From positions 1 to 61,714 of the forward strand of contig JBFLWK010000009.1 of NCBI GenBank assembly GCA_040757695.1: a DNA stretch of 61,714 nt, given 5' to 3'. Position numbers and translations under genes: made by a program. The DNA comes from Elusimicrobiota bacterium (lineage in GTDB: Bacteria > Elusimicrobiota > UBA8919). Below, piece by piece: positions 31,247 through 40,918 of the stretch. The stretch's first letter is position 1, and each line of letters begins with the position of its first letter. Under the pieces are notes generated by a model that did not search any database, was not told the origin of the DNA, and saw nothing but the letters and a program-made list of their open reading frames with translations.

Positions 31247-31254
31247 TAGTAAAT

Positions 31255-31405
31255 ACTCTTCGGGGTAAGGTGACCTGACTTCGCTGAAGCTTCGGTGGGG
31301 CAGGAATTCCTAACCGGTGGTGATAGTCCACTAAAGCCGATTTTACATCGGCTCCGAATCTGTGAAACACAGATACCGACGGTAAAGTCCGGATGAGAGA
31401 AGAGT
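31255..31405 (+). promoter_or_regulatory. FMN riboswitch (RFN element) with a 31-nt insertion
   Basis: The closing stem ACTCTTC/GAAGAGT brackets the RFN core: CGGGGTAAGGTGA, AATTCCTAACCGGTGGTGAT, AGTCCACTAAAGCC and CCGACGGTAAAGTCCGGATG. The class binds FMN and controls riboflavin genes. Removing 31274-31304 restores the conserved GTGAAATTCC exactly, so that block is an insertion into the P2 loop. A terminator follows 25 bp later. The rib genes lie 3-11 kb downstream. Confidence 0.93.
31274..31304. repeat. 31-nt hairpin-like insertion in the riboswitch
   Basis: It begins CCTGACTTCG and ends GGGGCAGG. The CCTG/CAGG ends and inner CTTC/GAAG can pair, so it could fold on its own. No target duplication is seen. 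Confidence 0.7.
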
Positions 31406-31430
31406 AGCGTTAAAAAGTTTCTGCTTTTAG

Positions 31431-31459
31431 AATCCCCGAAGATACTTTGGGGATTTTTG
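31431..31459 (+). terminator. intrinsic terminator of the FMN riboswitch
   Basis: AATCCCC and GGGGATT pair around an 11-base loop, followed by TTTGTTT. TAAAAAG and CTTTTA just upstream could form the alternative antiterminator-side hairpin. Confidence 0.8.
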
Positions 31460-31484
31460 TTTGTATGAATAGAACTGATAGAAC

Positions 31485-31825
31485 TGAGCAGGAGACTGTG
31501 AGAACTGTGAGAACTGCAGGTGAGAACTGGAGAACTGTGGAGAACTGAGAACTGTGCCAGACTTGTGAGAACTGTGAGAACTGTGCCAGACTTGAAATTT
31601 TCAATCTTTTTTTAAGTGCTATATGTAGGCGAGCCAAGGGCTCGCAACCACTCCAGAATTGGTGGAATCCTCTGCTTGCAGAGGACAAACATTGAAATTC
31701 CGATACAATCAAATTTCCCTGGTAGCCGCAACCTTTAGGTTGCAGCAACGATGCAGGGTAAACCCTGCAACTACCAAAAATGTGGGTTGTGACACAGTCT
31801 CAATTTCAAGTCTGGCACGGTATTG
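31485..31825. repeat. dense repeat cluster between riboswitch and next gene
   Basis: It holds GAACTGTGA nonamers (31485-31590) and the word GTGCCAGACTTGAAATT at about 31580, whose inverted copy lies at about 31807-31825. Between them are several hairpins: GCGAGCC/GGCTCGC, CTCTGC/GCAGAG, and a GTAG...CTAC pair at 31722-31774 (CGCAACC/GGTTGC and TGCAGGG/CCCTGCA). No gene is seen in 31460-31869. Confidence 0.75.
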
Positions 31826-31869
31826 CGGTGTCTGGCTAAATCTCTAAAATTGTAAAACTTGGAGTAAAG

Positions 31870-32874
31870 ATGAGTAATGAAATGTTAACTATTGAAGAGG
31901 CGGCAGAAGTGTCAGGCATACCTGTAAATCTTATTAAGCGTGTTGTCTTGGAAGGGTTGGTGTTTCCTGTTGCAAAAGAAGAGCCTTATCAATTTACAGA
32001 AGAAGAAGTAAAACTATGGAATAATAGCGATGAAGCGGGAAAACGCATTTATGGGAAAAAAGGGGTTGAATTATATCCTGTTAATGAATACCAAACTAAG
32101 AACAAATACATTCTTCCGTTTACAAATTGCTGGTTAGTTACAGATGGCGGAAAAATTGAATCAGGGCACAGGGACGAGATTGGACACTGTGTTCGTTGGG
32201 CATGGGATTTTTGTATTATTCATCCTGATGATTACAAAAAATGTTATACCGGTATGTCGTGGAAGGATTTATGTAATCTGAGATACAGATATCATCAGCA
32301 AGAAAATATCCCTGACATAAACTGGCAGGAAATAAGTCTTGAGCATAAACCTGAAAAATGGTTTACCAGAAATGAGTTGGTATTGGCGTTTAATAATGGA
32401 ACTTTACATAAAGACCATTATTGTTATGAAAAGGAAATCATTGCACCTGCTGATGGAGTTATTATTTTACCTGCTTTTACTTCAGAAGAACAATTTTTAG
32501 GTAAAGTAGAAAAGAATATTAAAAACAATTCTGATGAAACAATACAAAATATCATAATTGACCACGGGAATAATGAGTATTCACAAATTGGTCATGTGCT
32601 GGCACGTTCTGTTAAGGTGCGTCCTGGACAGAAAGTAAAGCAAGGTGAATTTGTTGGACTTTGCGGACAGTGGCAGATATGGCCTCATATTCATTGGGCA
32701 GTATGGGATTATTGGCATCCACTTTTTGCCAAAGGACTTCCTGTGACAATATCAAAATTATGGGTATATGAAGATGGTAAACACCGCTTCTGCATGCAGG
32801 GGCGGGGTAAATTTGTTTTGAAGCAGAATTTAATGCTTGAAAGAGGAATGATAGTTTCAAATAATAAACAATGA
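31870..32874 (+). CDS. fusion of a MerR/excisionase-like HTH and an M23-type peptidase domain
   Basis: 334 residues, GGAG upstream. Residues about 5-50 (LTIEEAAEVSGIPVNLIKRVV) look like an excisionase or MerR-type DNA-binding head. From about 85 a M23/LytM-like fold follows: GHCVRWAWDF (metal ligands), IIAPADGVII, IIIDHGNNEYSQIGHV, VRPGQKVKQGEFVGLCGQ and PHIHWAV with the HxH pair. No signal peptide is present, so it is probably cytoplasmic, which is unusual for M23. It is translationally coupled to the methyltransferase gene (ATGA) and lies between the FMN riboswitch and ribD. The biological role is unknown. Confidence 0.7.
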   Translation: MSNEMLTIEEAAEVSGIPVNLIKRVVLEGLVFPVAKEEPYQFTEEEVKLWNNSDEAGKRIYGKKGVELYPVNEYQTKNKYILPFTNCWLVTDGGKIESGHRDEIGHCVRWAWDFCIIHPDDYKKCYTGMSWKDLCNLRYRYHQQENIPDINWQEISLEHKPEKWFTRNELVLAFNNGTLHKDHYCYEKEIIAPADGVIILPAFTSEEQFLGKVEKNIKNNSDETIQNIIIDHGNNEYSQIGHVLARSVKVRPGQKVKQGEFVGLCGQWQIWPHIHWAVWDYWHPLFAKGLPVTISKLWVYEDGKHRFCMQGRGKFVLKQNLMLERGMIVSNNKQ

Positions 32875-33629
32875 AATATTACAAATATCACGAACGGAAA
32901 TATCAAAGTCTCAGAAGAGAAGGGAAAAAAAGATGGCAAGTATCACTTATAAAACCATTTACAGAGTTTCTATTGTTTCACAGGCTGCTGCCAAAATCAA
33001 AGGTTCTTGAACTTGGCTGTGGAACAGGTGATATTTCGTTTTCTTTTGCTCGTAGAGGATTTGAAGTGACAGGAGTAGATATTTCACCGACTGCTATTAG
33101 GATGGCTAAAAAAAGAGCAAAAGAAAAAGGACTAAAAGTAAAATTTGTTGTTGGTGATGTTACTAAACTGAAAGGGTTTTGTGATAACTATTATGATTTG
33201 GTTTTGGACGGTCATTGTCTTCATTGTCTTGTTTGGCAAGAAGACCGTCAAGGATTCTTAAAAAATTCTCTAAGAGTGCTAAAACCAGGTGGTTACCTTG
33301 TAGTCAACACAATGGCAATGCCGCCACGGAAATATGTGGACAAATATAGAAATGAATTTATCCTTCAAAAAGGGATCCAACTTGATAAAAATGGTCGTGC
33401 GTGGATAGTAGTCGGGAAAACACAATTTGCTTTACCTATTCGTTATACAGGGTTTAAGACTGCACTGCTCAAAGAAATTAGAAATGCTGGGTTCAGAATT
33501 CGTAAATGGATATACCAAAAAGAACCTGAAGGACCCGAAGTTTGTCGCCTTATAGTATATGGTGAGAACTGTGAGAACTGTGCCAGCTGTGAGAACTGTG
33601 CCAGACTTGAAATTTTCAAATTATTGTAA
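32871..33629 (+). CDS. class I SAM-dependent methyltransferase
   Basis: 252 residues. The SAM site is VLELGCGTGD (45-54) with GVDIS and FVVGDVT after it, then LDGHCLHCLVW and LKPGGYLVVNTMA, a typical class I small-molecule or protein methyltransferase. The substrate is unknown. The last 21 residues (ENCENCASCENCAR...) come from GAACTGTGA repeats and form a cysteine-rich tail that looks like readthrough into inserted repeat DNA. The start overlaps the stop of the HTH-M23 gene. Confidence 0.88.
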   Translation: MKYYKYHERKYQSLRREGKKRWQVSLIKPFTEFLLFHRLLPKSKVLELGCGTGDISFSFARRGFEVTGVDISPTAIRMAKKRAKEKGLKVKFVVGDVTKLKGFCDNYYDLVLDGHCLHCLVWQEDRQGFLKNSLRVLKPGGYLVVNTMAMPPRKYVDKYRNEFILQKGIQLDKNGRAWIVVGKTQFALPIRYTGFKTALLKEIRNAGFRIRKWIYQKEPEGPEVCRLIVYGENCENCASCENCARLEIFKLL

Positions 33630-34260
33630 GCAGAAAGTTTCCAAAATTGCTTATTTTCTCCATCGGTTAATATCAAGATACCCCGAACAAGTTCGGGACT
33701 CCAGTGCATACCGGAATCCTCTGCTTGTAGGGAACAGGCATGCCTGTTTCCTACAGTAAACTTCTGTGCAAGATGAAAAAAACTGATACTATAGATAGTG
33801 ATAAAAAATATATGCAACTGGCTTTACAACTTGCTAAAACAGGCATCGGAAAAGTAAGCCCTAACCCGATGGTCGGCTGTGTAATTGTAAAAAATGGAAA
33901 AATTGTTTCAACCGGTTATCACAAAAGAACTGTGCCAGACTTGAAATTTTCAAATTATTGTAAGCAGAAAGTTTCCAAAATTGCTTATTTTCTCCATCGG
34001 TTAATATCAAGATACCCCGAACAAGTTCGGGACCCCAGTGCATGCTGGAATCCTCTGCTTGTAGGGAAAAGGCATGCCTGTTTCCTACAGTGAACTTCTG
34101 TGCAAGATGAAAAAAACTGATACTATAGATAATGACAAAAAATATATGCAACTGGCTTTACAACTTGCTAAAACAGGCATCGGAAAAGTAAGCCCTAACC
34201 CGATGGTCGGCTGTGTAATTGTAAAAAATGGAAAAATTATTTCAACCGGTTATCACAAAT
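33593..34260. repeat. 334-bp tandem duplication covering the 5' end of ribD
   Basis: Copies are 33593-33926 and 33927-34260, both starting GAACTGTGCCAGACTTG. By eye about eight bases differ. Each contains repeat hairpins (for example AACAGGCATGCCTGTT flanked by GTAG...CTAC) and the first 51 codons of ribD. Confidence 0.93.
33773..34093 (+). pseudogene. truncated duplicate of ribD 5' end
   Basis: The ATG at 33773 begins MKKTDTIDSDKKYMQLALQL and matches RibD through STGYHK (51 codons). The frame then runs into the second copy's intergenic repeats and stops at 34093. The duplication unit (334 bp) is not a multiple of three, so the copy cannot fuse to the intact gene. The deaminase active site (HAE, PC..C) is absent. 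Confidence 0.88.
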
Positions 34261-35180
34261 ACTTGGGAGGTTCGCATGCGGAAGTCAATGCCTTGAAGAA
34301 CTACAAAAACCTAAAAGGTGCAACAATGTATGTTAATCTGGAACCGTGCTGCCATTACAACAAGAAAACACCGCCTTGCGTTCCACTTATAATCGCAGCA
34401 GGCATAAAAAAAGTTATTATTGCCATGAAAGATCCGAATCATGCGGTGGCGGGTAAAGGGATAAAACAACTTATAAAAAACAATATAAAATGTAAAGTCG
34501 GGGTCTTGAAAAACGAAGCGGAGAAATTAAACGAAAAATATATCAAATATACAAAAACGAAAATTCCTTTCGTAATTCTTAAAATGGCGTATTCGCTGGA
34601 CGGTAAAACGAAAACGGAAAACGGCGATTCTAAGTGGATAAGCTGTGAAAAATCAAGAAACCTCGTCCATAAAATAAGAAGCGAGGTTGATGCTGTTCTG
34701 GTCGGTATAAACACGGTATTAAAAGATAATCCGTATCTCACATCGCACGGCAGCGGAAAAAATCCTGTAAGGGTTATACTGGATACAAACTTGAAAATCC
34801 CTTTTAGTTCAAATGTGCTGAACAATGCGGCTGAAACAATAATTGCAACTTCTAAAACATCAAATAAACAAAAAAAAGCAAAACTTAAAAAGGCTGGTAT
34901 AAAAATAATTGAGATGCCTGTAAAAAATAACCTTATTGACCTGAGAAAATTTCTTATTGAACTTGGGAAACGGCAGATTTCGTCGCTGCTAGTTGAAGGC
35001 GGTGAAACTGTTGCCAACTTTTTTCTTAAACAAAAACTGGTTGATAAAATTGTGTTTTTTATCTGCCCCAAAATAATCAACGGTTTTTCAAAAATGAACC
35101 AAGTATTAGAAATTAAAAACATATCTGTAAAAAAAATCAAAAATGATTTACTATATGAGGGCTATTTAACGACAAGTTAA
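34107..35180 (+). CDS. ribD: bifunctional diaminohydroxyphosphoribosylaminopyrimidine deaminase / reductase
   Basis: 357 residues. The N-terminal deaminase has H57-A-E59 and the zinc cysteines in EPCCHYNKKTPPC (about 79-91). The C-terminal reductase has LKMAYSLDGKT, WISCEKSR, VDAVLVGINTVLKDNP and LLVEGGETV. It catalyses the second and third steps of riboflavin synthesis. The start is the ATG at 34107; the 11 codons before it belong to the duplicated repeat region. ribE, ribBA and ribH follow after two inserted genes, and the FMN riboswitch is upstream. Confidence 0.96.
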   Translation: MKKTDTIDNDKKYMQLALQLAKTGIGKVSPNPMVGCVIVKNGKIISTGYHKYLGGSHAEVNALKNYKNLKGATMYVNLEPCCHYNKKTPPCVPLIIAAGIKKVIIAMKDPNHAVAGKGIKQLIKNNIKCKVGVLKNEAEKLNEKYIKYTKTKIPFVILKMAYSLDGKTKTENGDSKWISCEKSRNLVHKIRSEVDAVLVGINTVLKDNPYLTSHGSGKNPVRVILDTNLKIPFSSNVLNNAAETIIATSKTSNKQKKAKLKKAGIKIIEMPVKNNLIDLRKFLIELGKRQISSLLVEGGETVANFFLKQKLVDKIVFFICPKIINGFSKMNQVLEIKNISVKKIKNDLLYEGYLTTS

Positions 35181-40297: not shown

Positions 40298-40918
40298 ATG
40301 TTTACAGGAATAACTGAAGATTTGGGCACTGTAAAAAAAACAAACAAAACGCAGATTGTTGTTGAGACAAAACTTGATGATATAAAAATCGGCGATAGTA
40401 TCTGCATCAATGGTGTATGTCTTACTGTTTGTGAGTTCACGAGTTCACGAGTTCACGAGTTCACGAGTCAAATTTCAGAAGAAACATATAAGAGAACAAA
40501 TCTTGGTGGGCTGAAAGTAGAAGATAAAGTAAATCTTGAAAGAGCAATGAAATCGGACGGGCGGTTTGGTGGACATTTTGTTACAGGGCATATTGATGGT
40601 GTCGGACAAGTTTTAGCAATTTCAGAATTCCGGAATTCTAGAATAGTGAAATTCTCAAATCCTGAAAATTTGTCAAAATATATCATTGAAAAAGGTTCAA
40701 TTGCTGTTGATGGTATAAGTTTAACAGTAGCAGAAAAAAAGGGAAACTCGTTTTCAGTTGCAATAATTCCATATACATTAAAAAACACAACATTGGGAAT
40801 AAAAAAAGTTGGGGATAGTGTAAATCTTGAGACAGATATTCTGGCAAAATATGCTTCACAAAAACTGGAAAAACAAGTAATAACTTTTGATACGCTTAAA
40901 AAAGCAGGTTTTCTATGA
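40298..40918 (+). CDS. ribE: riboflavin synthase, alpha chain
   Basis: 206 residues with the internal duplication of the family: MFTGITEDLG start, SICINGVCLTV, VNLERAM, GRFGGHFVTGHIDGVG, then GSIAVDGISLTV and VNLETDILAKY. It dismutates two dimethylribityllumazines to riboflavin. An octamer tract (GAGTTCAC)4 inserts residues about 46-57 in place of the short loop after CLTV, and an AATTCCGGAATT palindrome near 40626 lengthens a second loop. ribBA follows after a BIME element. Confidence 0.96.
   Translation: MFTGITEDLGTVKKTNKTQIVVETKLDDIKIGDSICINGVCLTVCEFTSSRVHEFTSQISEETYKRTNLGGLKVEDKVNLERAMKSDGRFGGHFVTGHIDGVGQVLAISEFRNSRIVKFSNPENLSKYIIEKGSIAVDGISLTVAEKKGNSFSVAIIPYTLKNTTLGIKKVGDSVNLETDILAKYASQKLEKQVITFDTLKKAGFL
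40433..40464. repeat. (GAGTTCAC)4 octamer tract inside ribE
   Basis: Four perfect 8-bp copies on the coding strand, encoding EFTSSRVHEFTS in a surface loop region of riboflavin synthase. Confidence 0.9.

Follow-up and report, generated by a model that had tools for sequence, protein, structure and literature searches.

A 31-nucleotide hairpin in the L2 T-loop of an FMN riboswitch from an Elusimicrobiota bacterium is a new instance of a common loop extension

The stretch of DNA analysed here (the window) comprises positions 1 to 61,714 of contig JBFLWK010000009.1 of an Elusimicrobiota bacterium (assembly GCA_040757695.1). It carries on its forward (+) strand a flavin mononucleotide (FMN) riboswitch aptamer, or RFN element, with a 31-nucleotide (nt) hairpin lodged inside loop L2; the riboswitch features and riboflavin genes given below all lie on this strand. 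The aptamer, at 31252–31408, matches the RF00050 covariance model along its whole length (model positions 1–138 of 138) with 87.7 bits, where the gathering score is 66.2, and is the single RF00050 match in the 2.89-Mb genome. It fits the entire consensus, with six stems and the L5 and L6 loops. Further along its strand lie ribD and ribE. From the alignment and the predicted fold of 31252–31462, P1 is formed by UACUCUUC (31254–31261) and GAAGAGUA (31399–31406). L6, the partner with which L2 docks in the contact described in PMC3764141, is aligned as CGG-UAAAGU-CCG (31380–31391), its loop UAAAGU (31383–31388) being uninterrupted. The element differs from the consensus in L2, where its 31-nt helix is, for the Rfam model, an unmodelled local insert. 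It is probably an otherwise intact FMN riboswitch of the transcription-terminating type.

An earlier note on this DNA, made from the sequence letters alone, had claimed that deleting 31274–31304 restores the conserved loop, and alignment to RF00050 bears this out. The alignment places 35 nt in L2 where the model has 4, that is, AAUU plus 31 extra nt. The insert (31274–31304) is flanked by AGGUGA (31268–31273), made up of the 5′ side of P2 (AGG) and the first half of the L2 T-loop (UGA), and by AAUUCCU (31305–31311), made up of the second half of the loop (AAUU) and the 3′ side of P2 (CCU); the T-loop assignment follows the descriptions in PMC2258182 and PMC3764141. With the 31 nt left out, L2 reads GGUGAAAUUCC, a form that L004 and L005, among other relatives, also have.

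The minimum-energy fold of the insert is one continuous hairpin, CCUG-a-CUUCGCUGA/AGCU/UCGGUGGGG-CAGG, with 13 pairs (CCUG with CAGG, a bulged A, then nine further pairs) and a four-base loop. The ends of the insert thus pair as the earlier note had proposed, whilst the inner CUUC/GAAG stem that it also proposed turns out to be a weaker alternative to this continuous hairpin. The fold energy is −15.9 kcal/mol (z = −3.49), and none of 200 shuffled sequences was as stable. When the insert is folded together with its P2 flanks, P2, open T-loop halves and the identical hairpin are obtained, and in the predicted fold of the whole leader (31252–31462) P1, P2 with the hairpin, P3–P6-like stems and a terminator all occur together. 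The structure of the insert is beyond what chance would give, yet it stands at a common, published insertion site.

That site is described by Barrick and Breaker (2007; PMC2258182), whose account of T-loops states that the GNR triloop is sometimes broken by a base-paired helix, with examples in FMN and adenosylcobalamin (AdoCbl) riboswitches. L2 here is of the T-loop type (UGAAAUU), in the form UGA^AAUU with a base-paired helix in between, and is such a case in P2. What is new relative to the published cases is the particular 31-nt sequence and its host; the comparison with them covers the kind of loop and the stem concerned. PMC3764141 sets out the docking of L2 with L6, a loop–loop contact of the kind that the earlier note mentions for the P2 loop; in it, A90 of L6 intercalates between bases four and five of UGAAA in L2 (A21 and A22). 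One step ahead of this intercalation site, between the third and fourth T-loop bases, stands the insert, which would be compatible with docking. The hairpin leaves the loop between bases three and four (UGA^AA), at a point that admits insertions. The U–A pair that closes the T-loop could therefore still form to one side of the added helix, and so could the fourth–fifth base step at which the L6 adenine intercalates in the solved structure. A literature search, conducted mostly at the level of listings, found no structure of an FMN riboswitch with an extended L2.

Extensions at the same point recur within the phylum. Among 247 genomes, 97 have an RF00050 match at E ≤ 0.001, and L2 was read in the best match of each; a second, partial match in one genome (24.8 bits) was left out. 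An L2 insert of at least 8 nt is present in 31/97, a figure obtained by reading the printed loops by hand for inserts after GGTG or GGTGA; automatic classification by regular expression gave 26/93, with four loops unparsed, and missed L001, L017 and L200. By family label, the inserts are found in 4/8 elements of the window's own family (f1), 26/45 of f3 and the single element of f18, with none among 43 elements in the other 14 families. The common insert of genus g7 in family f3 is also present in a Candidatus Endomicrobiellum sequence (L055), so that g7 probably belongs to the Endomicrobia. The nearest parallels to the insert are in the window's family, where L012 and L023 carry at the same insertion point CCTAAACAGG, with CCU/AGG ends that resemble CCUG/CAGG of the window, and L017 has a helix at this point too. 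These inserts are shorter than the 31 nt found here (10 nt in L012 and L023, 20–21 nt in L017). Judged from the ends shared with L012 and L023, this suggests a common origin in the family, possibly followed by growth of the hairpin. Of the 20 phylum inserts that the regular expression could excise (the other 11 of the 31 falling outside the test), 15 have at least four end pairs, allowing some slack, whereas shuffles gave 3.6 on average and never more than 9; this is a weaker test than the corresponding one on the contig scan below.

The same arrangement was seen outside the phylum in a pattern scan of genome contigs, which returned at least 120 stretches. The pattern was built to find inserts, so that its figures give no frequency, and inserts longer than 38 nt are invisible to it. 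Two filters were applied to the stretches, requiring the 5′ RFN motif immediately before the loop and the GTCCGGATG core after it. Excluding L151, which is the window itself, 80 true L2 inserts were obtained among the at least 120 stretches listed, 34 others having GGTGA outside the loop and six lacking the core within 300 nt. The filter probably loses a few true cases, such as L045 and L095, which resemble true extensions. Among these 80 filtered matches listed, the inserts span 8 to 38 nt (median 16), 67 have at least three pairing end bases (1000 shuffles: mean 5.5, maximum 13), and 61 keep AA directly after the helix. The hosts of the filtered inserts, taken from the titles of the first 80 of the at least 120 stretches listed, include Alicyclobacillus, Blautia, Lentisphaerae, Thermomicrobiaceae, Chloroflexota, Spirochaetales, Verrucomicrobia, Kiritimatiellia, Armatimonadetes, Bacteroidales and candidate division KSB1, among others. 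The earlier note had stated that its reading would be refuted if similar natural helices occurred at this very point in many other RFN elements, and such elements are indeed numerous, as the 31/97 in the phylum, the 80 among the at least 120 stretches listed and the description in PMC2258182 all indicate. The insert adds a new case to a published and common kind of loop extension, and looks like ordinary variation.

A rival reading takes the insert for a mobile or repeated element, for example a short palindromic repeat, that became inserted in the riboswitch. The insert is palindrome-like, and repeated hairpins do occur in other RFN elements of the phylum, for example two near-identical 34-nt hairpins in L020, one in P3 and one in L6. 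The inserts at the L2 point, however, vary in sequence from genus to genus, which counts against this explanation, and we consider it extremely unlikely. It was rejected on the basis of a genome search in which the 31-mer is single copy (up to three mismatches allowed) and its 17-nt core (up to two mismatches) is found at one other place only, with two mismatches.

The expression platform lies just downstream of the aptamer, where the predicted fold and a terminator scan place an intrinsic-terminator-like hairpin followed by a T run (31429–31457). The scan match alone is weak evidence, since the 3.2 kb scanned gave three terminator-like sites where chance would give 2.5. Because this count is near chance, more weight is carried by complementarity to the terminator arm: CUUCGGGG (31258–31265), which runs from the last part of P1 into J1-2, is complementary to CCCCGAAG at 31434–31441 and is the likely antiterminator strand. 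The computed duplex between the stretch that includes CUUCGGGG and the 5′ arm of the terminator has an energy of −16.3 kcal/mol. By prediction, therefore, a terminator and a competing antiterminator strand are both present. With the insert in place, the fold containing P1 and the terminator has an energy of −81.7 kcal/mol and the forced antiterminator fold −70.3 kcal/mol, a gap of 11.4 kcal/mol; with the insert left out, the values are −63.5 and −52.5 kcal/mol, a gap of 11.0 kcal/mol. These energies leave FMN and tertiary contacts out of account, and at this level of calculation the near-equal gaps mean that the insert does not shift the switch.

The same arm bears on the idea that CUUCGGUGGGGCAGG, which makes up the 3′ half of the insert, arose by partial duplication of the riboswitch 5′ end and acts as a second, FMN-insensitive antiterminator. 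CUUCGGUGGGGCAGG can indeed form a duplex of −12.7 kcal/mol with the terminator's 5′ arm, the value for the true strand being −16.3 kcal/mol, but 62 of 1000 shuffled inserts pair equally well with the arm. Its similarity to the 5′ end is no better than chance, being matched in 310/2000 and 476/2000 shuffles under two scorings. Given these results, and with CUUCGGUGGGGCAGG buried in the insert's own stable hairpin, the duplication and decoy were rejected; we regard them as scarcely credible.

The earlier note had left two outcomes side by side, a disabled sensor or an extra helix that is tolerated, and it is the second that our results favour. We are confident that the FMN riboswitch is a normal one, with a natural helical extension of its L2 T-loop that is tolerated locally. 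On this reading, the aptamer would be predicted to fold and to bind FMN as usual, with docking unimpaired. FMN would hold P1 together and thereby keep the 5′ CUUCGGGG strand off the terminator arm; with CUUCGGGG sequestered in this way, the terminator would form and the riboflavin genes would be turned down.

Disabled sensing would instead mean that the insert breaks the L2–L6 contact and that the riboswitch has decayed, being permanently on or permanently off. It draws on the participation of L2 in L2–L6 docking, as described in PMC3764141, and on the disturbed look of the operon, in which two unrelated genes and a 334-bp tandem duplication separate the switch from ribD. Set against it are the covariance score of 87.7 bits, well above the gathering score, the repeated occurrence of extensions at this point, both among relatives and across many phyla, the strong fold of the insert, as expected of a maintained helix, and the unchanged computed balance between terminator and antiterminator. 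L6 is uninterrupted, and the terminator has its competing strand. Disabled sensing is therefore left without support here, and we judge it very unlikely.

Some observations do sit less comfortably with a tolerated, natural extension. Most of the phylum elements (66/97) are without such an L2 insert, and genus f1g5 of the window's family mixes both states, with the insert in 2/3; genus f3g52 of f3 likewise has it in 1/2. The insert is also at the long end of the range, since only 3/80 of the filtered matches listed are of 31 nt or more. Finally, ribD starts 2.67 kb after the aptamer, compared with about 46–124 nt in 7/7 other members of the family.

This distance makes riboswitch control of ribD across 2.67 kb uncertain, for reasons unrelated to the L2 hairpin. 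The probable regulated gene, ribD (34074–35180), is assigned by TIGR00326 with 352 bits (cut-off 156), and ribE, encoding riboflavin synthase, lies further downstream at 40298–40918 (TIGR00187, 218.7 bits, cut-off 156.6). The ribD neighbourhood search covered 30 loci and found ribD in 27. Between the aptamer and ribD are genes for an M23 peptidase-like protein and a methyltransferase (∼2.3 kb, 31559–33925), flanked by a 46-nt repeat at 31559–31604 and 33574–33619 whose copies are 89% identical, and 31559–33925 looks like an insertion into the riboswitch–ribD unit. A 334-bp tandem duplication (33592–34259, 97% matching) copies the start of ribD, and a truncated open reading frame with a deaminase domain (33740–34093) lies just ahead of the full-length gene. 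Short-period arrays of ACTGTGAGA / GTGAGAACT are found on both sides of the inserted genes, at 31495–31585 and 33562–33604, and many more arrays of 7–9-nt units are dispersed across the window.

Loop extensions in the phylum are not confined to L2. By a regular-expression count, hairpin-like inserts of at least 14 nt are present in L6 in at least 20/97 of the FMN riboswitches (for example L188, L197, L198, L201, L204, L192, L195, L020, L022, L202, L203 and L212), and some f3 genomes have inserts in L2 and L6 together. The passage of PMC2258182 on helix-interrupted loops names P2, P3 and P5, not P6. In L020 (genome G011; aptamer at 1501–1700) the 34-nt hairpins in P3 and L6 are near-identical, and a search of the G011 genome allowing up to three mismatches gave no further copies.

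The extra helix might be more than tolerated in the window's family. It could conceivably tune the switch, through stiffer or slower L2–L6 docking for instance, such that the extended and plain forms of L2, both of which occur in f1g5, would set different thresholds of response to FMN; we consider this very unlikely. The insert has little importance taken alone. The phylum survey has a small practical use: it shows that L2 extensions are frequent in the phylum and lower the Rfam score, and because of this some FMN riboswitches in which L2, L6 or both loops are extended score under the gathering cut-off, which is passed in 79 of the 247 genomes compared with the 97 that have a match at the more permissive threshold.
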